Translations under genes and position numbers: made by a program
Notes under the pieces: generated by a model
Seen by the model: only the letters and a program-made list of their open reading frames with translations
What the model was told of the DNA's origin: nothing
Databases searched by the model: none
Shown: in pieces, positions 1 through 8,131 of the stretch
Numbering within the stretch: the stretch's first letter is position 1
How the letters are laid out: every line of letters begins with the position of its first letter
Assembly: GCF_000331305.1 (NCBI RefSeq)
Contig: NZ_KB217478.1
Coordinates: 3,446,627-3,510,626, forward strand
Origin: Calothrix sp. PCC 7103
GTDB taxonomy: Bacteria > Cyanobacteriota > Cyanobacteriia > Cyanobacteriales > Nostocaceae
DNA length: 64,000 nt
Direction of reading: 5' to 3'

Positions 1-102
1 TAAACGTCGCTTTTCCATTTTTCCTCCTTTGTATTTCTTTGAATAATGCCTTAGATAGTTACTTAATTTATCTAGCTGTGAGTTCAATTAGAATTAAAAT
101 TT

Positions 103-687
103 ATGATGGTGCTTATGGAATTAACTACAAATATTCACGCTTTGAAGGAATGGGCTGTTGCAATTCAAGCTTTAGAAGCTGGTGATACTGTGATGCTGCT
201 TCGCAAGGGTGGTATCCATGAAAAAGGTGGACACTTTCAAGTTGCCCAAGAACAAGTTCTACTGTACCCAACTTATGAACACCAACAACCTTTCTTACTT
301 AAACCAGAGTATGCTGACCGTGTTGTCCCTGTAACATCTGGTTGGCACCCAGAAACGGTAAGGATTGGTAGCTTTGCTCAAATTACTCATATTTTCCCAG
401 TTAGTGATGCCCATATTGTTAACCAATTATTGCCTTTTCATATCTGGAACGAACATTTTTTAATTGACCGTCTCAAGTGGAAACCACGTCAACCTTTATT
501 TGTGCTATTGTTACGCACGTATAAGTTAGCACAAATTGAAGAATTTCCTTACCGAGATTCATATGGTGGTTGTAAATCTTGGATTGATTTAGAACGGTCA
601 ATTAGTATCGAAAATGCGATACCTGTTTTACCTGAATCTACTTATCACCAAACTGTAAATCAAATTCTAAAAACCGGGTTTCCTTAA
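103..687 (+). CDS. DUF1802 family protein
   Basis: A 194-residue soluble protein that I recognise as the cyanobacterial DUF1802 family, whose function is unknown. The sequence opens with the family-like 'ALKEWAVAIQALEAGD' followed by 'LLRKGGIHEKGGHF', then a central 'HIWNEHFL' and 'RLKWKPRQPL' and a C-terminal 'YGGCKSWIDLE'. No signal peptide or membrane segment is visible. Several in-frame ATGs (103, 106 and 115) are possible starts; the one at 115 gives 'MELTTNIHALKEW', which fits the family pattern well. The gene stands alone, converging on the interrupted ATPase gene downstream. Its stop codon lies inside a terminator-like hairpin. Family assignment is from memory of the conserved motifs; no function is claimed. 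Confidence 0.85.
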   Translation: MMVLMELTTNIHALKEWAVAIQALEAGDTVMLLRKGGIHEKGGHFQVAQEQVLLYPTYEHQQPFLLKPEYADRVVPVTSGWHPETVRIGSFAQITHIFPVSDAHIVNQLLPFHIWNEHFLIDRLKWKPRQPLFVLLLRTYKLAQIEEFPYRDSYGGCKSWIDLERSISIENAIPVLPESTYHQTVNQILKTGFP

Positions 688-696
688 TAGAAACCC
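676..696 (+). terminator. Hairpin overlapping the DUF1802 stop
   Basis: GGGTTTC and GAAACCC form a 7-bp stem around a 7-base loop containing the stop codon, followed by a T-rich stretch (AGTTTCTTT). It could act as a rho-independent terminator for DUF1802. The same 'GAAACC-GGTTTC' palindrome recurs at 52629-52713, so it also belongs to a dispersed repeat family. Confidence 0.5.
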
Positions 697-711
697 AGTT
701 TCTTTACGTTA

Positions 712-1738
712 TTACAATTTCGGCGCCTCTTCTTCAATAAAAAACATACATCTCTCTCCCCCAACCTGGGTTTCCCGTTTTTTTTCGGTTCCTGCTTGTA
801 TGTTTCGCAGTGCTACATAGCGCTTCATTAACATTCGGAGTTGGTCTGGTTGTAATAATTTGGGAAATTTGTTAATTGCAAGTTCAAGGTCATCTATATA
901 AGGTGCATTACTAGAAAATGCATTGTATTTAGCTTCCATCCACTTTGATGAGCTAGTTAGTAGGGTGTAGACTTCCTCTATACGTCTTGCTGCATCAAGG
1001 TGTCTTACTAAATATAACAACCCATACTTATCAAATTTTTTAAATTCCACTTCTTCCCAGGTGGTATTTTGCTGATAGTAATCGATAAGTAAGTTATGGT
1101 ATAAGCTAGCATCACACGAGAATTCTCCACTACGTTTTTTATCTAGAAAATAATCACGTAGTGATTGGTGAAAGATGCTATAAGTTCCATTATATACATA
1201 TAAAAACTCATGCAATTCTTCTAAGTAATGAGATATATTATCAATGCTTGTAAAATTTTTGAGATGCTCTTGTGTTAAAGGTTGCTTTGCTACTACCAGT
1301 ATACTTAATATGTGCTGATAATGTTGCCGTTCATCTGCATTGATGTTGTTGAGGAAGCTATGGTAAATACCATCTATATTTTTTGGTGAAGCTTCTAGAT
1401 TATCTAAAGATTGCTTTGCTACAATATTATTTATTAATAACTTAGCGTATAAAAAATTACCCTTCGCCCAGTTGGCAATTTGACTGCTTAATATTCCACT
1501 TGTAATAGGTGCCCCCTGAACGCTTACAGTGAATATATTTTGAAAATGTGGTTGCTTTAGTCGTTTTTCTACATATTGCCAGATGTCTGTCAGATTTTCC
1601 TGCGATGTATTCTCTATATAATATGGCGCAATTGTTGAGAATTCTTGCAAAAGTGGGTCTCGTGGACGAGATGTCAAGATAAAGCGCACAAAAGATGGTA
1701 AATCTAAGTTCGATAATTGTGCAAATAGTCTAATTATA
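712..1738 (-). pseudogene. STAND/NACHT-like ATPase, C-terminal part (split by IS)
   Basis: C-terminal two thirds of a P-loop ATPase whose N-terminal part lies at 4333-4840. The reading frame runs from the insertion-sequence junction at 1738 to the stop at 712; the first internal ATG is at 1689. It begins with the sensor-like 'RFILTSRPRDP' typical of STAND/NACHT NTPases. A helical winged-helix-like region follows ('HQSLRDYFLDKK'), then a tail ending 'FFIEEEAPKL'. Joining the two halves after removing the element plus one copy of the 8-bp duplication restores an uninterrupted frame reading 'ENIIRLFAQLSNLDLPSFVRFILTSRP'-like sequence across the junction, so the gene was intact before insertion. 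The restored protein would be about 510 residues. No TPR, WD40 or other repeat sensor is seen, so its trigger and role are unknown. Confidence 0.8.
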
Positions 1739-1832
1739 GGTTCTTGTCAAGTTTTGGTGAAAGCTTTGGAAACGTTCTTGGCAGAGGGCAGTAGGCAGAG
1801 GGCAGAAGGAAGGAGTAAGGGTGAAGACATTT
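1739..1832. repeat. Left terminal inverted repeat of the ISL3 element (94 bp)
   Basis: Reads as the exact reverse complement of 4239-4332. The outer roughly 40 bp are ISL3-like (GGTTCTTGTCAAG...), and the inner part holds the repetitive GCAGAGGGCAG / GGAAGGAGTAAGG tract. Identity stops at 1833 (A on the left versus G on the right arm). Confidence 0.95.
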
Positions 1833-1846
1833 AATAACATTAAAAT

Positions 1847-1911
1847 TTGGAGCTTTATTTTTGTCTCGGTGACTAAATTTTATAGTCAATAAGATAAAAC
1901 TAAAGCTCCAA
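1847..1911 (-). terminator. Inverted repeat downstream of the S23-like gene
   Basis: TTGGAGCTTTA (1847-1857) pairs with TAAAGCTCCAA (1901-1911), with a smaller GACTA/TAGTC inverted repeat nested in the loop. It lies 50 bp past the end of the four-helix-bundle gene and may terminate its transcript or be part of the element's structure. Confidence 0.4.
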
Positions 1912-1962
1912 CAAGCTTTTAGAGGTTGGATTACATCACGCTAAAAATTCAGTTTTTTGAGA

Positions 1963-2328
1963 CTATTTCTTTACTCCAGCAGTTAGTTTGTTTAAGGTTG
2001 CAACCAATATACTTTGCATTTCTTCCACCTCGTTCATGATGGTCGTAAAACGATTTTTGTTGTCAAGTATATCTACCTCTTGAGCAATTATAAATTGGGT
2101 ATCTAATTCTCGTAGTGAGCCTAAAGCAATATATAAGAATTTTATATATTCTTGCCTTGATTGCCGACCATAACCTTCAGCAATATTAGACGCTACTGAT
2201 ACTGCTGAACGCCGTATTTGACTTGTCAAACCATATAATTCATGTTTTGGAAATGCTTGAGTAAACTTATAGCAATGGATAGCTAGTTGTACTGCCCTTT
2301 TCCATACAAATTGGTTTCGGTAACTCAT
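1963..2328 (-). CDS. Four-helix bundle protein (S23 / Avd-like), IS passenger
   Basis: A 121-residue protein of the four-helix-bundle family first seen as the 'S23' ORF of 23S rRNA intervening sequences and related to Avd of diversity-generating retroelements. Diagnostic stretches are 'ELYGLTSQIRRSAVSVASN', 'IAEGYGRQSRQEYIKFLYIA' and 'GSLRELDTQ'. The basic, all-helical fold is known to form a pentamer and bind nucleic acid in Avd; the job of the free-standing members is unknown. It lies wholly inside the ISL3-type element, 167 bp downstream of the transposase frame and on the same strand. No reverse transcriptase or variable repeat is nearby, so this is not a diversity-generating retroelement. 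The ATG at 2328 is the only good start. It is apparently intact, while the transposase is not. Confidence 0.88.
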   Translation of the reverse strand: MSYRNQFVWKRAVQLAIHCYKFTQAFPKHELYGLTSQIRRSAVSVASNIAEGYGRQSRQEYIKFLYIALGSLRELDTQFIIAQEVDILDNKNRFTTIMNEVEEMQSILVATLNKLTAGVKK

Positions 2329-2495
2329 AGTTAAGTTGGAAAGCAGAAGATTTGAAGATTTGAAGTAGAACTAATTATATGTTTTTTATACTTAGGTTTG
2401 TCTTCACTAAGTTAGATTAATTAATGATTGTTATTATTTGGTTATTAATATTTACAAAAATATATTTGTACCTAGCAAATCGAGTCAACTTAAAT

Positions 2496-4166
2496 TTAGA
2501 TTTGTAACAAAAATCGTCTAGTTAGCAAGTCTAGTTTTGCACGACCATACATTTGTCTTTTCAGCATTTTAAGTCGATTAATTTGTCCTTCGACAGGTCC
2601 ATTACTCCAAGGCGTTGTCAAAGCAGCTTTGACCGCGTTGTAATCTTCAAGCAAGCTTTTGGCAAAGCGATGGAAAGGTGATAAAATGCTGTTGTAAGCA
2701 ACAGTCAGCCAAGTATCTAATTCTTCTTGTTGTCGTTGACGGATAAGAGATATAAAATTTTCTGCTAACTCAATTCCTTCTCTTAAGCTTGGGCTTTGTG
2801 CTTTTAAAGACACGACTAATTCTTCTCGCTCAGACTCTGAAACACCAGAATCAGAGCTACCTAAAATTAGCCATGTTACGCTATAAGGAGTGAGAGGTTT
2901 TCTTGATGGTTTAACAATTTTTGGTAGGCGTACAGTTGACAATCTCTGCCGTTTTTTAAACCTTGGCATTCGCGTAAACGTGCGGTGTAACGAGTTAAAG
3001 TAGCATAGCTACCAACATATCCTTGTTGTTTAATTTCTTCAAATATTATTTTAGTTTCACGACAGCCTTCATTCCATCGTTTTATGATGTAATCTTGATA
3101 AGGCTTTACTAAACCTCGACCTTTATCACTACGCCCCCGGCGCTCTACAAAAGTCGGATTACGGAGATTACGGAAAACTGTTGTGCGACTAATACCAAGC
3201 CTTTGAGCAATAACTCCCGCATTCATTCCTTGACTATGTAGCTCCCAAGTTTTTTGATGATTTTCTTTTCTTTTGGCACGACGTTGTTCTGCTTTTGTTT
3301 TGTTTAACTGGTGGTGGTGCTTCGGTTGGAGAAGTGACAACAACGATGTTTTCTTCATCCCTAATTACAGAAGCTTGATTTTGTAATTGTTCGACTTCTT
3401 TCAAGTCTTTACTATATATCCCAAACACTTCATAAAGCGTTTGAGCTAAATTTTGTAGTAAGTGAAAGCGGTCTGCAACTTGAATTGCATCGGGTGCGCC
3501 TTCTTTAATTCCTTTTTCATAAGCTTTCGCTCTGTCTCGTGAAACAATCTGAATACCAGGATTTTCTTTTAACCATGAGCTTAAGGTTTCAGATGAACGG
3601 TCTTTTAATAATGTAACAGGTTGATTATTTTCTAAATTAACAACGATAGTACCGTAAGTTTTGCATTTACGAAAACAAAAATCATCTACCCCTATAATTT
3701 TTAGAGAATCAGGTGATGGTAAAGGTATTCTACGAACTAAATTTAATAGCGTATTACGACTTGTGTTTAAGCCTAATTTTTGTGATAATCTGAATCCTGC
3801 TGCACCACCTGATGCTAAACCTATCGCAGTTAATCGAGACGCTAATCTCATAGTTCGACGTGCCCACGGAGCCACAATATCTGTTAATCTTTCAGTAAAT
3901 ATTCGTCTTTTACATTCCGTATTGATGCAAAAAAATTTCCTCACACGCAGTTGAAGTAAAGTACCATAGTTCGCCCATGATAAATCAGCTATTTTACGCT
4001 CATAGTGGCTATGAATTTTATGTGTTGCCTCATTGCAGACTGGACATTTAACTGCTGTTTGTACTGAAGAAACAAGCACGATTACCTCCCTTCGCTCCTC
4101 GTCAATATTACAACTTTCAAGCAGGAGAAGATTTTTATCTGGTAATAAGCTTTTTAGTACTTCCAT
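2496..4166 (-). pseudogene. ISL3-family transposase, two frameshifts
   Basis: The transposase would be about 550 residues but is spread over three frames. The first (from 4166) has the N-terminal zinc motif 'CPVCNEATHKIHSHYERK', a second cysteine group 'CINTECKRR' and the DDE-type region 'IGVDDFCFRKCKTYGTIVVNL' and 'VSRDRAKAYEKG'. The second (about 3300 to 2970) carries a helix-turn-helix 'QRLGISRTTVFRNL'. The third (to 2496) has the family's C-terminal 'PWSNGPVEGQINRLKMLKRQ'. The first break is at CAAAAG, where one extra A explains the shift. The second is at TTTAAAAAAC, where a -1 shift rejoins the frames. Either the gene is decayed or one or both shifts are read through. ISL3 transposases are normally one frame. 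The first frame starts with ATG at 4166. Confidence 0.88.
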
Positions 4167-4238
4167 ATTATAATGAAATCTAATATACTAGTATAAATAT
4201 TTATTATTTTTATTTTAAAACTAAAAAATTATACAGTC

Positions 4239-4332
4239 AAATGTCTTCACCCTTACTCCTTCCTTCTGCCCTCTGCCTACTGCCCTCTGCCAAGAACGTT
4301 TCCAAAGCTTTCACCAAAACTTGACAAGAACC
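4239..4332. repeat. Right terminal inverted repeat of the ISL3 element (94 bp)
   Basis: Exact reverse complement of 1739-1832. It is followed directly by the second copy of the target duplication TAATTATA (4333-4340). Confidence 0.95.
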
Positions 4333-4840
4333 TAATTATATTTTCATCTCCTGTAATTGCAGCTTCATACAAGGAGTCTATAAGGATAACTATATTAGTC
4401 GGCTGTGGCTGTAATATTGTTAAAGGTGCGCGAATCAGTATTTCGAGTACGTTTTCTGGGTCGTTTGGTGCCAGATTATCAATGTAAAGTTTAGTAATTT
4501 GACTTTCTGTCATCGACGAGTCAATACTATTGACTTGTGATAGTAAGTCAACTGGTTTAACTGTACTTGCTAAAGCTTGACTGTAGTTTGGTAGATTTCC
4601 CAACTGTATAGCTAATGACCTTAAGATGTTGCTTGATTTTGTAGTTTCTACATCTCCAGCTTGACAAAAATGATACGCGGTTATGTAGCTGCGCTGAATC
4701 AATTGATTAGAAATACTGCTTATACCTACCCCTGATTCCCCAGTCAGGATTAAAAAACGCTCCCTTGTATTTGTTAACCAATTGTCTATAAGTTCAAAGA
4801 GCCAATTACGCCCAGTAAAATCTTCTATATAAGTTTTCAT
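4333..4840 (-). pseudogene. STAND/NACHT-like ATPase, N-terminal part (split by IS)
   Basis: N-terminal part of the interrupted ATPase, with ATG at 4840. The host sequence ends at 4333; the frame runs a further 18 codons or so into the insertion sequence and stops at 4277. It begins 'FTGRNWLFELIDNWL', a common opening of STAND proteins, then 'LILTGESGVGISSIS' at residues 31-45. This is a P-loop in which the invariant Lys of the GxxxxGK[ST] motif is replaced by Ile (residue 40). The presumed Walker B, 'NIVILIDSLYEAA', has Tyr where these proteins usually have a second Asp. ATP hydrolysis may therefore have been weak or lost before the insertion. Its continuation is at 712-1738. Confidence 0.8.
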
Positions 4841-4975
4841 TTTATTTGGATGTAAAATAATAAGCTGTCAATACCTCATAGGTATGATTGCTCGATATGA
4901 TATAAGGTTAAATTAACATAAGTTGGTTTATAAAGTTCCTCGCTGTTAGTCGAGTAAGTTGGTACAAGCAAAATA

Positions 4976-5003
4976 GCCTACTTTACGAAAACGCAAAGTA
5001 GGC
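4976..5003 (-). terminator. Hairpin after the FAS1 gene
   Basis: GCCTACTTT and AAAGTAGGC form a perfect 9-bp stem around a 10-base loop. On the minus strand it is followed by TATTTTG. It lies 53 bp past the FAS1 stop codon and is a reasonable rho-independent terminator, possibly working in both directions. Confidence 0.65.
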
Positions 5004-5055
5004 GAAGAATTTTTGTTGTTATTACAGTGTTGCGAGTTAATGTCACTCTACATCA

Positions 5056-5910
5056 TTAAGGTGTTTGACCTGGTGTAGGCGCCGGATTTGATTCTGGTGT
5101 TTGATCTGGTATGGGCGCCGGATTTGATTCTGGTGTTTGATCTGGTATGGGCGCCGGATTTGATTCTGGTGTTTGATCTGGTATGGGCACCTGGTTTGTT
5201 TCAGGTACTGTGTTTGGTGCTGGCACCTGCTCCGGTTGAGTTGTGGGGCTTGATTCTTGCTGGAGTTTTGCTGCAATGGTTTTGCGTAAGCTTGATGGTA
5301 GAAGTACACGGTTGACTGCGTGAATTACACCATTGCTCGCTTTGATGTCAGCTTGGGTAACACTCGCATCGTTTACAATCACCTTTTCACCAGTTTTGCG
5401 AACTGCTACTCCACCACCTAGAGTTTTCACTGAACCACTTCTTAGTTTGTTGGCAGGAACTCTACCAGCTACAACGTGATATGAAAGTACTTGCCGTAAC
5501 AAGTCTTTATTTTGAGGTTCGAGTAAAAACTGTAAGGCGCCTTGAGGCAAGGAAGAACTAAAAGCTTGGTCGGTAGGTGCGAAGATTGTAAAATTACCGT
5601 CAGAGAGGGTGTTAGACAAACCAGCAGCTTCAACAGCTTGGGCAAGAGTTGTAAATGTACCACTCGATTGAGCTACTTGCAGTAAATTTTCATTTGCCGC
5701 ATTTGTTGGTGTTTTGGCTGGTGTGGATTGATTTGTTGATGGTTCAGTGGTGTTGCTGGGAGTATCTGTAGTTGTACCAGGAGATTCTTGGGTGTTTGTT
5801 GGCGCCGAAGGGTTTGGACTTATTTGTGCTGTAACAGGTATTGCTAATGCGCTGATACCTACGATAGTAGCAGCAATCTTGGCGGGATTTATAAATTTGT
5901 TAAACATCAT
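5056..5910 (-). CDS. Secreted FAS1 (fasciclin) domain protein
   Basis: A 284-residue exported protein. A signal peptide is seen at residues 1-28 (hydrophobic 'IAATIVGISALAIPVTA' then AQ). A Ser/Thr/Pro-rich linker runs to about residue 75, followed by one fasciclin domain (about 76-205) with the hallmark 'FTIFAPTDQAF', 'LLRQVLSYHVVAGR' and 'NGVIHAVNRVLLP'. The tail from about residue 215 is Pro-rich and made of a 12-residue tandem repeat (PDQTPESNPAPI). FAS1 domains mediate adhesion and the protein probably sits in the periplasm or outer layers. The gene is monocistronic, with its own terminator at 4976-5003 and two 16-bp direct repeats upstream. The first two codons are both ATG; either could be the start. 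Confidence 0.9.
   Translation of the reverse strand: MMFNKFINPAKIAATIVGISALAIPVTAQISPNPSAPTNTQESPGTTTDTPSNTTEPSTNQSTPAKTPTNAANENLLQVAQSSGTFTTLAQAVEAAGLSNTLSDGNFTIFAPTDQAFSSSLPQGALQFLLEPQNKDLLRQVLSYHVVAGRVPANKLRSGSVKTLGGGVAVRKTGEKVIVNDASVTQADIKASNGVIHAVNRVLLPSSLRKTIAAKLQQESSPTTQPEQVPAPNTVPETNQVPIPDQTPESNPAPIPDQTPESNPAPIPDQTPESNPAPTPGQTP
5061..5200. repeat. 36-bp tandem repeat in the FAS1 tail
   Basis: Three near-identical 36-bp units (GGCGCC at 5078, 5114 and 5150) and a fourth diverged unit (GGCACC at 5186). Each encodes 12 residues, so copy-number change keeps the frame. Every intact unit contains one GGCGCC palindrome. Confidence 0.9.
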
Positions 5911-5921
5911 TACACTGGTTT

Positions 5922-5966
5922 GTAATTAAACACGCACAATATTCAACTTCGTAATTAAACACGCAC
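5922..5966. repeat. Direct repeats upstream of the FAS1 gene
   Basis: GTAATTAAACACGCAC occurs at 5922-5937 and again at 5951-5966, a 29-bp period, directly before the FAS1 start. It may be a regulator-binding pair or a short local duplication; no -10/-35 assignment is convincing. Confidence 0.6.
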
Positions 5967-6023
5967 GCTAATCAACTTAGTTAATTTTTGTAAATATTTC
6001 CTCTAGCAAAAGTAGTACTTTTT

Positions 6024-6716
6024 ATGTTCAATATTCAATTACTCCCCCGTATAAATGCTAAAGTTTTACGTCAAGATGGTAAACAATATTACGTTGATGC
6101 TGGTGGAAAAAGTTTTCCGAGTGTGACAACAATATTAAACGCTACTAAACCCCAAGAAGACCGTGATAGGTTAGCTAATTGGAAAACACGTATTGGTGTA
6201 GAAGAAGCGACTAAAATTACAACAAAAGCTAGTCGTCGTGGTACTCAAACACATAAACATATTGAACGTTATTTACTGAATAAAGACCCTGTTTGTCCTG
6301 AAGCAAGTCTTCCATACTGGGAAAGTATTAAACCTGTTTTAGATAAAATTGATACTGTTAGATTAATTGAAGGTTCGGTTTTTAACTACAATTTAAATTA
6401 CTCGGGACAAGTGGACTGTGTTGCCAGCTATGAGGGTATAAATTGTATTTGCGAGTGGAAAACTGCTGATAAACCAAAAGGTTCTGTAGAAAGACTATAT
6501 GAATATCCATTGCAGTTAGCAGCATATTTAGGAGCAGTAGCTGAATCTTACCGCGAGTATGATATTGAAGTGAAACACGCGCTTTTGGTTGTGGCTATTC
6601 CAAATAGTCCTGCGGAAGTGTTTTGGTTTGATGCTAAAGCGATGGGGGAGTATTCGTTGATGTGGGAAAAGCGAGTTAAGGAATATTGGGAAAAGAGGAA
6701 ATATTGGGGATACTAA
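6024..6716 (+). CDS. PD-(D/E)XK family exonuclease-like protein
   Basis: A 230-residue protein with the RecB/phage-exonuclease version of the PD-(D/E)XK nuclease fold. Visible motifs in order are 'FPSVTTIL' near residue 32 (the entry strand seen in MGME1/exonuclease-like proteins), 'GTQTHKHIERYL' (the conserved His), 'YSGQVDCVA' (metal-binding Asp), 'CEWKTA' (the E-x-K catalytic pair) and 'YPLQLAAYLGA' (the downstream QxxxY motif). All key residues appear to be present, so it is probably an active single-strand DNA exonuclease. Substrate and partner are not known. It lies divergent from FAS1 and about 60 bp before the flippase gene, with no sign that they share a function. Confidence 0.75.
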   Translation: MFNIQLLPRINAKVLRQDGKQYYVDAGGKSFPSVTTILNATKPQEDRDRLANWKTRIGVEEATKITTKASRRGTQTHKHIERYLLNKDPVCPEASLPYWESIKPVLDKIDTVRLIEGSVFNYNLNYSGQVDCVASYEGINCICEWKTADKPKGSVERLYEYPLQLAAYLGAVAESYREYDIEVKHALLVVAIPNSPAEVFWFDAKAMGEYSLMWEKRVKEYWEKRKYWGY

Positions 6717-6778
6717 TGGTCATTAATTTTGATAAATTGTGGCACAATGCATTAAAAATATCGAAAACCTTATTATAA

Positions 6779-8131
6779 ATGAATAAAAAAGAAAATCTAC
6801 AACAAACGGCGCCTGAAACTACACCTTCATTATTGGCAAATTTAGCTCGTGGCGCCAGTAGTGCTTTAGCAGTTCAAATATTGAGCGCAGCTTTAATTTT
6901 TGGGTTTCAAGTTTTCTTAGCAAGGACTCTTGGAGTTACAGAGTATGGAGTTTATGATTATGCAATAACACTAGCAACCTTCTTAGCTTTTCCTGCTAGT
7001 CTCGGTATTCCAATGACCGTGTTGCGGTTTATTCCTGAATATATTACTAAACAAGACTGGGCACATTTAAAAGGGATAGTTTGGTGTAGTTTACTGCAAA
7101 CACTAACTGTTAGTTTTGTAGTTTCCTGTTTAAGTACTGGTGTCTTGTTGTGGTTAGAAGCGCATTCGCTTATTAAAAATACTACTGCTTTAATTATTGG
7201 TGTTTGGGGATTACCTTTACTAGCTATTACAGGTTTACTGCAACAAATGGCAAGGGGTTTACATCAAATTATTTTAGCATTTACACCATATATGATTGTT
7301 TATCCAATCTTATTGATGGTTATAGCGATGTTTTGGATTGTATCGTTCCATTCTTTAACAGTATATAATTTACTGTTTTTTTCTATATTATCTTTATTTA
7401 TTATTACAATTGGGCAATTTATTCTATTACGTCAAAGTTTTCCTAGAGAAATTAATAACGTTAGACCAAGTTATGCATGGGGTCAGTGGTGGGAAGTTGC
7501 CCTAGCACAAATATTTCTTAACGGTTCCAACGTGATTTTAAGCCAAACTGATACGTTGATGATTGGTGGTATGTTAGGAGTGAAAGAAGTAGGTATTTAC
7601 GGCGCCACTTTTAAAACGTCACTTTGGGTTAATTTGTTATTAACGTCGATAAATGCAATTGCGGCGCCGATGTTTGCTTCATTATATGTGAAAGGTGATA
7701 TAGTTGGGCTGCAAAAATTAGTATCGACCAGCGTTAAGTGGATGTTTTTTCCAGCACTTGCAGTTAGTGTAGCAATGATTATTTTTGTCGAACCTGTATT
7801 AAAAATGTTTGGTGAGGAATTTGTGAGTGCTAAGTTTGTATTAATAACTTTGATTTTAGGGCAACTTGTTAATGTTGGTGCAGGTTCTGTAGGGTATTTA
7901 TTACAGATGACTGGATATCATAAGCAGTGTGCAGTGGTTATGGGTGTTAGCGCACTCGTTAATATTGTACTGAATTTGATTGGTATAGGCACTCTCGGAA
8001 TTTTAGGCGCCGCATTAGCAACAGCGTTTTCGATGATGCTATGGAATTTATGGTTACACCGCTTGGTAGTTAAGCATTTGGGTATTCATCCTTCGATTGT
8101 GGCAGCGATACAGGATGTTACAGTAATTTAA
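6779..8131 (+). CDS. Polysaccharide flippase (Wzx/MATE-like)
   Basis: A 450-residue polytopic membrane protein of the polysaccharide biosynthesis/flippase group of the MOP superfamily, which moves lipid-linked oligosaccharides across the inner membrane. It starts 'SLLANLARGASSALAVQILSAA' and 'GFQVFLARTLGVTEYGVYDYA', the typical first helix and loop of these proteins. About twelve hydrophobic segments follow, with a central 'SQTDTLMIGGMLGVKEVGIYGA' that is also characteristic. No glycosyltransferase or polymerase genes are adjacent, so the transported glycan is unknown. It starts with ATG at 6779. Confidence 0.82.
   Translation: MNKKENLQQTAPETTPSLLANLARGASSALAVQILSAALIFGFQVFLARTLGVTEYGVYDYAITLATFLAFPASLGIPMTVLRFIPEYITKQDWAHLKGIVWCSLLQTLTVSFVVSCLSTGVLLWLEAHSLIKNTTALIIGVWGLPLLAITGLLQQMARGLHQIILAFTPYMIVYPILLMVIAMFWIVSFHSLTVYNLLFFSILSLFIITIGQFILLRQSFPREINNVRPSYAWGQWWEVALAQIFLNGSNVILSQTDTLMIGGMLGVKEVGIYGATFKTSLWVNLLLTSINAIAAPMFASLYVKGDIVGLQKLVSTSVKWMFFPALAVSVAMIIFVEPVLKMFGEEFVSAKFVLITLILGQLVNVGAGSVGYLLQMTGYHKQCAVVMGVSALVNIVLNLIGIGTLGILGAALATAFSMMLWNLWLHRLVVKHLGIHPSIVAAIQDVTVI

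Follow-up and report, generated by a model that had tools for sequence, protein, structure and literature searches.

Insertion sequences of the ISL3 family usually end in terminal inverted repeats of 15-39 bp, and the tandem heptamer repeats of cyanobacteria are known as STRR. We know of no function for the S23 (23S rRNA-intervening-sequence, IVP) proteins, nor of any catalytic residues in them. A structure from this family has been solved since 2006 (2gsc). Passages of PMC4990558 quote S23 as a homopentamer and recount proposals that the 23S rRNA intervening sequence is a remnant of transposition, or else a mobile element with an ORF for its mobility, while a figure legend of PMC10910872 counts the 23S rRNA IVP as a new association for CRISPR adaptation modules. 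Tandem heptamers were described from Xanthomonas in PMC4692102, where 70 and 75 inverted heptamer pairs are reported for two genomes, where heptamers were not generally found linked to mobile elements, and where the term S23 is absent from the main text. Dispersed inverted short repeats together with a gene bordered by the same repeats form the REPIN/RAYT arrangement, as the consulted sections of PMC3116915 present it. Within the searched passages of open-licence PMC texts, we found no paper that connects S23 with ISL3 or with heptamer arrays.

We analyzed a 64,000-nucleotide stretch of the genome of Calothrix sp. PCC 7103 (contig NZ_KB217478.1, positions 3,446,627 to 3,510,626; hereafter the window), in which an NTPase-like gene is interrupted by an ISL3 element that carries an S23 gene beside a broken transposase. 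Its features, in window coordinates, are:

712-1730, minus strand: 3' portion of the NTPase-like gene that the element splits (TANC1-like winged helix)
1731-1738, no strand: target duplication, left copy, TAATTATA
1739-1832, no strand: terminal inverted repeat, left, 94 bp
1739-1779, no strand: ISL3-type end (GGTTCTTGTCAAGTTTTGGTGAA...), the portion comparable to relatives without S23
1780-1814, no strand: left heptamer arm, 5 units, GGCAGAG GGCAGTA GGCAGAG GGCAGAA GGAAGGA
1847-1911, no strand: strong hairpin 3' of S23, possible terminator (from folding energy)
1963-2328, minus strand: S23 / 23S rRNA-intervening-sequence-protein gene, 121 aa, four-helix bundle (from profiles and predicted structure)
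2496-4166, minus strand: ISL3 transposase in three broken frames, 3234-4166, 2876-3358 and 2496-2969 (from profile match)
4239-4332, no strand: terminal inverted repeat, right, 94 bp
4257-4291, no strand: right heptamer arm, inverted
4333-4340, no strand: target duplication, right copy, TAATTATA
4341-4840, minus strand: 5' part of the interrupted NTPase-like gene (NPHP3_N ATPase)

The inverted arms at 1737-1832 and 4239-4334 (96 nt, 100% complementary), taken together with the 8-bp direct repeat TAATTATA, place the element at 1739-4332 with ends of 94 bp, such that the perfect 8-bp target duplications (1731-1738 and 4333-4340) and the perfect 94-bp inverted repeats of the original prediction were both borne out, as was its remark that these ends are several times longer than is usual for ISL3. 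The ends of the other copies in the genome match the borders of this mobile unit, and excision of 1739-4332 in silico with one TAATTATA retained yields an open 508-aa reading frame from the two NTPase-like pieces; the insertion is therefore real. The hairpin at 1847-1911 (-27.1 kcal/mol on the minus strand; z of -7.05 and -7.63 for the two strands) lies directly 3' of the S23 stop and may be a terminator or a structured RNA. Beyond the element, at 5056-5910 on the minus strand, a 284-aa reading frame carries C-terminal, near-identical, proline-rich repeats of 12 residues (PIPDQTPESNPA).

Assignment of the element to ISL3 held, as the NF033550 profile (cut-off 180) scores a window piece of the transposase at 231.1 and the intact copy L003 at 342.7, with an 8-bp target duplication alongside; the length of the inverted repeats is a usual rather than a defining trait, and membership stands despite the 94-bp ends. 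The transposase had been called broken, which is right for the window copy, with its three overlapping pieces of 310, 160 and 157 aa, and wrong for the family, in which L003 has an uninterrupted frame of 557 aa counted from ATG. Compared with L003, the window copy is one base short in a run of Ts (2951, a T) and two bases short near 3296, indels that may be an assembly error or recent decay. Programmed frameshifting, with slippery runs at both breaks, was considered and rejected because the frame is unbroken in L003 and the differences between copies are small indels, most of them in runs.

The gene carried inside the element is intact, as had been claimed. Its 121-aa frame is open and matches PF05635 (E 1.1e-36, 125.7 bits, cut-off 33.8) and TIGR02436 (134.5 bits, cut-off 24), and the AlphaFold2 monomer model is a confident four-helix bundle (pLDDT 94.5) that lies nearest to XCC0516 (2gsc, rmsd 1.1) and next to BT_0352 (2rld). 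The proposed likeness to Avd survives as a fold common to both proteins and fails as a family assignment: Avd (4dwl) ranks after 2gsc and 2rld (TM 0.80, 13% identity to the model), and membership was ruled out at 21.7 bits against a cut-off of 80 for the Avd profile. The six proteins scanned in window positions 1-7000 included no reverse transcriptase.

A similarity search of the genome revealed five full-length copies at ~100% identity, the window copy counted; contigs C1 and C10 hold two more that have diverged (80-83%), and there are further deleted or partial copies. The S23 frame is open in each of the five full copies and in the two diverged ones; an internally deleted copy has a truncated S23 with profile positions 31-105 kept, and the partial copy C7:6784317 spans query positions 1559-2594 only and hence has no S23 side. 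Four of the five full copies are flanked by 8-bp duplications (TAATTATA, AAAAAAAC, GGAAATTG, TTATTGTG), and the fifth, L002, adjoins a truncated copy, with no 8-bp duplication counted. Mobility is thus shown by the multiple copies and by the duplications at four of five, the recent movement originally deduced from the identity of the two ends is supported, and the suggested look for further copies in the same genome found the S23 passenger in every full one (5/5).

Several copies have unusual surroundings. At C7:6781076-6785348 (genome G000), a full and a truncated copy lie ~650 bp apart with an identical right flank, which suggests a local duplication. The diverged copy on contig C1 (102 kb) runs over the two ends of that contig, with a near-identical overlap of ~449 bp; C1 is therefore probably a circular plasmid opened within the IS. 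Extra inverted repeats, for example TGTAGAGGCTTGCAATTATAAATCACTCGGCTTGCAAACAAGG or CCAGGATTAT, stand outside the IS at L009 (C10), L007/L008 (C1), L075, L112 and L297; the C1 and C10 copies lack an 8-bp duplication at these outer repeats and look as if placed midway between the inverted ends of another element, or else as if a flank had been copied by fold-back.

Relatives were collected by transposase, blind to S23, giving 45 loci of which 21 contain S23 sequence. When a locus was taken as informative if cyanobacterial and with a transposase match of at least 47% (best segment) through its end (n=20; L092 and L113 are omitted, as each locus ends just past the transposase), S23 lay downstream of the transposase on the same strand in 19, three of these having a broken S23 (L082, L085, L094). 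L080 has no S23, yet has heptamers and a full-length transposase match, and counts against the model that we propose below; at L079, an additional (first) copy is S23-less. The remaining S23-less loci are 10 non-cyanobacterial ones, 3 distant or reduced cyanobacterial ones (L088, L089, L119) and 10 that are truncated or at a contig end; of the S23-less loci, L097 and L111 stop no more than 170 bp from the transposase. A DNA search of 145 same-family genomes added five elements (L155-L159) with S23 convergent to the transposase, in which the module is inverted or captured again; a shared operon is therefore not needed, which also counts against the model. In plasmid3 of Nostoc sp. HK-01 (AP018321.1), transposase NIES2109_62720 is followed by the S23-type gene NIES2109_62730.

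In other cyanobacteria, then, the passenger is a stable part of the element (19 of the 20 informative relatives), and its separate insertion into the window copy alone was rejected by the other copies and relatives that bear it. The original prediction had held that copies without the gene, with the gene alone elsewhere, would speak for a separate arrival; this is borne out by half, since S23-less relatives do exist (L080, the first L079 copy, L088, L089 and the non-cyanobacterial loci) and S23 does occur without the window IS elsewhere, and we therefore conclude that the gene was captured at an earlier stage and has since moved with the IS.

Each 94-bp end combines an ISL3-type end with the heptamer arm accompanying S23, with the outer ~41 bp being ISL3-like and the remainder heptamer arm and adjacent sequence. 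A period-7 tandem array lies within the inverted repeat of all 17 S23-bearing ISL3 elements examined (from 21 loci, with L079, L085, L094 and L117 omitted), mostly of GGCAGAA/GGCAGAG type and mostly just interior to the ISL3-type end, compared with 1 of the 10 S23-less elements examined (from 24), the exception being L080.

A second ISL3 lineage captured an S23 module independently. In the same genome, the ISL3 transposase of L164 (C12) differs from that of the window element (27% identity where the two match). S23 lies downstream of it, a heptamer array stands in the inverted repeat, and the target duplication is the 8-bp AAATATTC. Two sisters of L164 (L230 and L231, 80% identity) lack the segments with S23 and the array and are plain elements of ~1.45 kb. 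The L164 gene falls in another S23 clade than that of the window, behind several well-supported branches of a tree with few columns, many weak forks and a midpoint root, from which we rely upon the L164-window separation alone. The ISL3-linked label needs 6 changes on this tree because some S23 genes within the window clade have no transposase in the available stretch. In the short-transposase lineage of L164, S23 is absent from 29 of 30 loci, many of these 30 being fragments and the single bearer being the query's own locus, and a general bond between ISL3 and S23 was rejected on this count. S23 of L164 shows no inverted repeat within 400 bp because the transposase sits between the gene and the left arm, which is a further point against the model.

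Framing by inverted arrays looks general for S23 genes. We scored inverted repeats on 400-bp flanks for a non-random set of S23 loci, chosen chiefly as top matches to the window S23, and for 219 gene-matched controls free of N and all from the window's phylum, the 95th percentile of which is 13.0 (14 of the 219 reach it because scores are discrete). Among 49 cyanobacterial S23 loci (50 given, 1 dropped as short or containing N; L122 is itself ISL3-linked), 43 score at least 13.0, L123 and L125 at exactly that value, and 23 reach the 99th percentile of controls, with a median of 23 vs 10 in controls; the other 6 have no significant inverted repeat and count against the model. All 9 scored loci from other phyla reach 13, by controls that all come from the window's phylum (sources were Chloroflexia, Armatimonadetes, Phycisphaerales and Herpetosiphon genomes and Gemmatirosa and Azospirillum plasmids; 12 loci given, 3 dropped, 2 without a profile hit and 1 short). 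The three top-scoring controls are not S23, and control region L256 contains an S23 fragment. Across the S23 loci, own flank pairs exceed the 95th percentile of mismatched pairs in 47/58, the repeats are inverted in 52/58 vs direct in 12/58, period-7 or -8 runs occur in 49/58 vs 38/408 random control windows, and the inward-reading arm is G-rich over C in 49/52. With a threshold fixed beforehand, all 15 annotated plasmid S23 loci tested (from 26 records, 19 of which were retrieved; L296 is also in the main set, and L349/L350, L351/L352 and L356/L357 are close kin) score at least 15.5, and 13 have a period-7 run.

Arrays are abundant in the genomes examined, and 33 of the 408 random control windows have a period-7 run alone, both of which would suit a link that is a mere by-product, with arrays common in intergenic DNA and S23 genes residing in array-rich places. 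We regard this as highly improbable, as the threshold score is reached at 14/219 same-genome gene-matched controls vs 43/49 S23 loci, mismatched pairs and direct orientation show no effect, and the arms are missing together with S23 at empty sites (below).

In Pseudanabaena and Anabaena plasmids, S23 lies between cas6 and cas4. The gene is heptamer-framed at such plasmid sites in L353 and L359 (Anabaena sp. 90 being annotated as type I-D), and it may be an insert there rather than a CRISPR part. S23 genes amid CRISPR or conjugation genes may also have other functions, which counts against the model.

Between genomes of the same genus, the S23 module comes and goes as one unit. At L140, three genomes (G114, G278 and G126) lack exactly the 454-bp module with its arms at the orthologous position; in G364, G073 and G027 the missing stretch agrees with the module to within 2-7 bases, and G137 and G280 have ~30 unaligned bases instead. 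The module at L249 has GTAAG-type ends, is flanked by two copies of GATTTTAA and is absent from all eight other genomes searched, with 184 bp of other sequence at that place in G364; ATTTTAA occurs at the site once in G114, G278 and G073, and an 8-bp duplication at L249 is likely, although the duplicated sequence is AT-rich and G099, also without the module, has ATTTTAA twice. S23 of L127 is absent from the five other genomes searched (three of them inspected), which have ~120-260 bp of other sequence there. L136 is present in G080, G129 and G040, and its place holds inverted arrays without S23 in G103, G139, G116, G039 and G102 (five inspected). These absences may be losses or non-gains.

Twelve S23-containing copies in genome G247 (L150, L170-L181; 85-100% identical) stand beside inverted heptamer arrays, with an S23 match that ends at about residue 88 and with stop codons in some copies, and most of them sit inside the common outer left end of another element. 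Miniature elements of ~250 bp that bear inverted heptamer arms are also numerous in this small genome; the common left end reads AACTGACGTTACGCA..., and in two copies ...TGCGTAACATCAGT stands on the right.

Purifying selection acts more strongly on S23 than on the transposase, with omega of 0.008-0.089 (NG86, rough; finite for 11 of 12 pairs) vs 0.14-0.27 (NG86, rough; 8 of 9 pairs). A role in the host or in addiction could explain such selection just as well, and it is one of the points in favor of S23 as a passenger, either selfish or of use to the host (toxin-antitoxin-like, stress or defence), that has no part in movement, the arrays belonging to a MITE-type element with another transposase. 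DDE transposases can make 8-bp duplications, and one module (L249) has an apparent one; moreover, the G247 units lie inside the apparent ends of a different element and inverted arrays without S23 exist. We nevertheless think a pure passenger unlikely, as this would leave unexplained the arms of the same polarity at most of the S23 genes examined in several phyla.

The window holds a recently active ISL3 IS with a stably captured S23 module inside its ends, and such modules also occur widely apart from any transposase. The reading that we favor, tentatively and at a little short of even chances, is that S23 is a nucleic-acid-binding ring that acts on the arrays in a REPIN/RAYT-like way. The ISL3 DDE transposase would do the cutting and joining, and S23, a homopentameric ring in a solved relative, would bind heptamer arrays on DNA or on a hairpin transcript. 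In ISL3, binding to the arrays would put S23 beside both ends, where it might pair them or protect an intermediate, and modules with S23 only could be moved by a transposase acting in trans. ISL3 would in this way have co-opted a REPIN/RAYT-like partnership of a repeat-framed gene and its repeats. What the sequences establish is the arrangement of gene and arms and its gain or loss as a unit; the role of S23 on the arrays is our inference.

S23 might instead work at the RNA level, the inverted arrays folding its transcripts into hairpins as in 23S rRNA intervening sequences, and bind its own hairpin for autoregulation or for RNase III processing or protection, with the IS as carrier. Such a role would agree with S23 ORFs being known from hairpin-forming 23S rRNA intervening sequences (passages of PMC4990558), with median distances of 38.5 and 34.5 bp between the arms and the stretch matched to S23, and with Avd, of the same fold, being a component of a reverse-transcriptase ribonucleoprotein (PDB titles 8ub7, 8ubb, 8ube). 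The ISL3 arms, however, lie outside the transposase as well as S23 and adjoin the DNA ends, and arrays have been kept at IS ends in two lineages although an RNA role would not need them, such that we consider this account improbable.

Array binding by S23 also allows a wider picture, which is possible but rather doubtful. Here S23 modules would be a widespread mobile hairpin family of several phyla, with S23 as an array-binding spreader (RAYT-like), solo arrays (STRR) as non-autonomous members and 23S rRNA intervening sequences as modules caught in rRNA, and ISL3 would have absorbed the module at least twice, gaining longer ends and a helper protein. Our observations point to a previously unrecognised kind of mobile module. 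If the picture is true, the function of S23 and the origin of 23S rRNA intervening sequences and cyanobacterial heptamers become one testable problem, and S23 near CRISPR or conjugation genes should be read as part of those systems only with caution. The ISL3 element, an IS with and without the module, offers a natural assay.

Among known systems, the element is like the ISL3 family (NF033550, PF01610) in its transposase above cut-off, its 8-bp duplication and its GGTTCTT...TTTTGGTGA ends, and unlike it in the extra S23 gene and the heptamer-extended inverted repeats, the arrays being absent from most S23-less relatives examined. With 23S rRNA intervening sequences it shares an S23-family gene framed by inverted repeats (as passages of PMC4990558 describe them), but here the gene lies in an IS inside a protein gene and among heptamer arrays; window positions 1-7000 gave no Rfam match at E 0.1, and the window S23 site is not 23S rRNA. 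The Avd protein of diversity-generating retroelements (NF033474; 4dwl) has the same fold, whereas the window S23 falls far below its family cut-off. The Xanthomonas heptamers GGGAATC and GGGGATT, in the sections of PMC4692102 that treat them, are similarly tandem. REPIN/RAYT (in the sections consulted of PMC3116915) is alike in its arrangement, as S23 is framed by inverted repeats that are also found dispersed and unaccompanied, and the parallel is one of analogy only, since S23 is a four-helix bundle and not a tyrosine (Y1) transposase, and the units of its module are tandem 7- or 8-mers rather than palindromic REPs.
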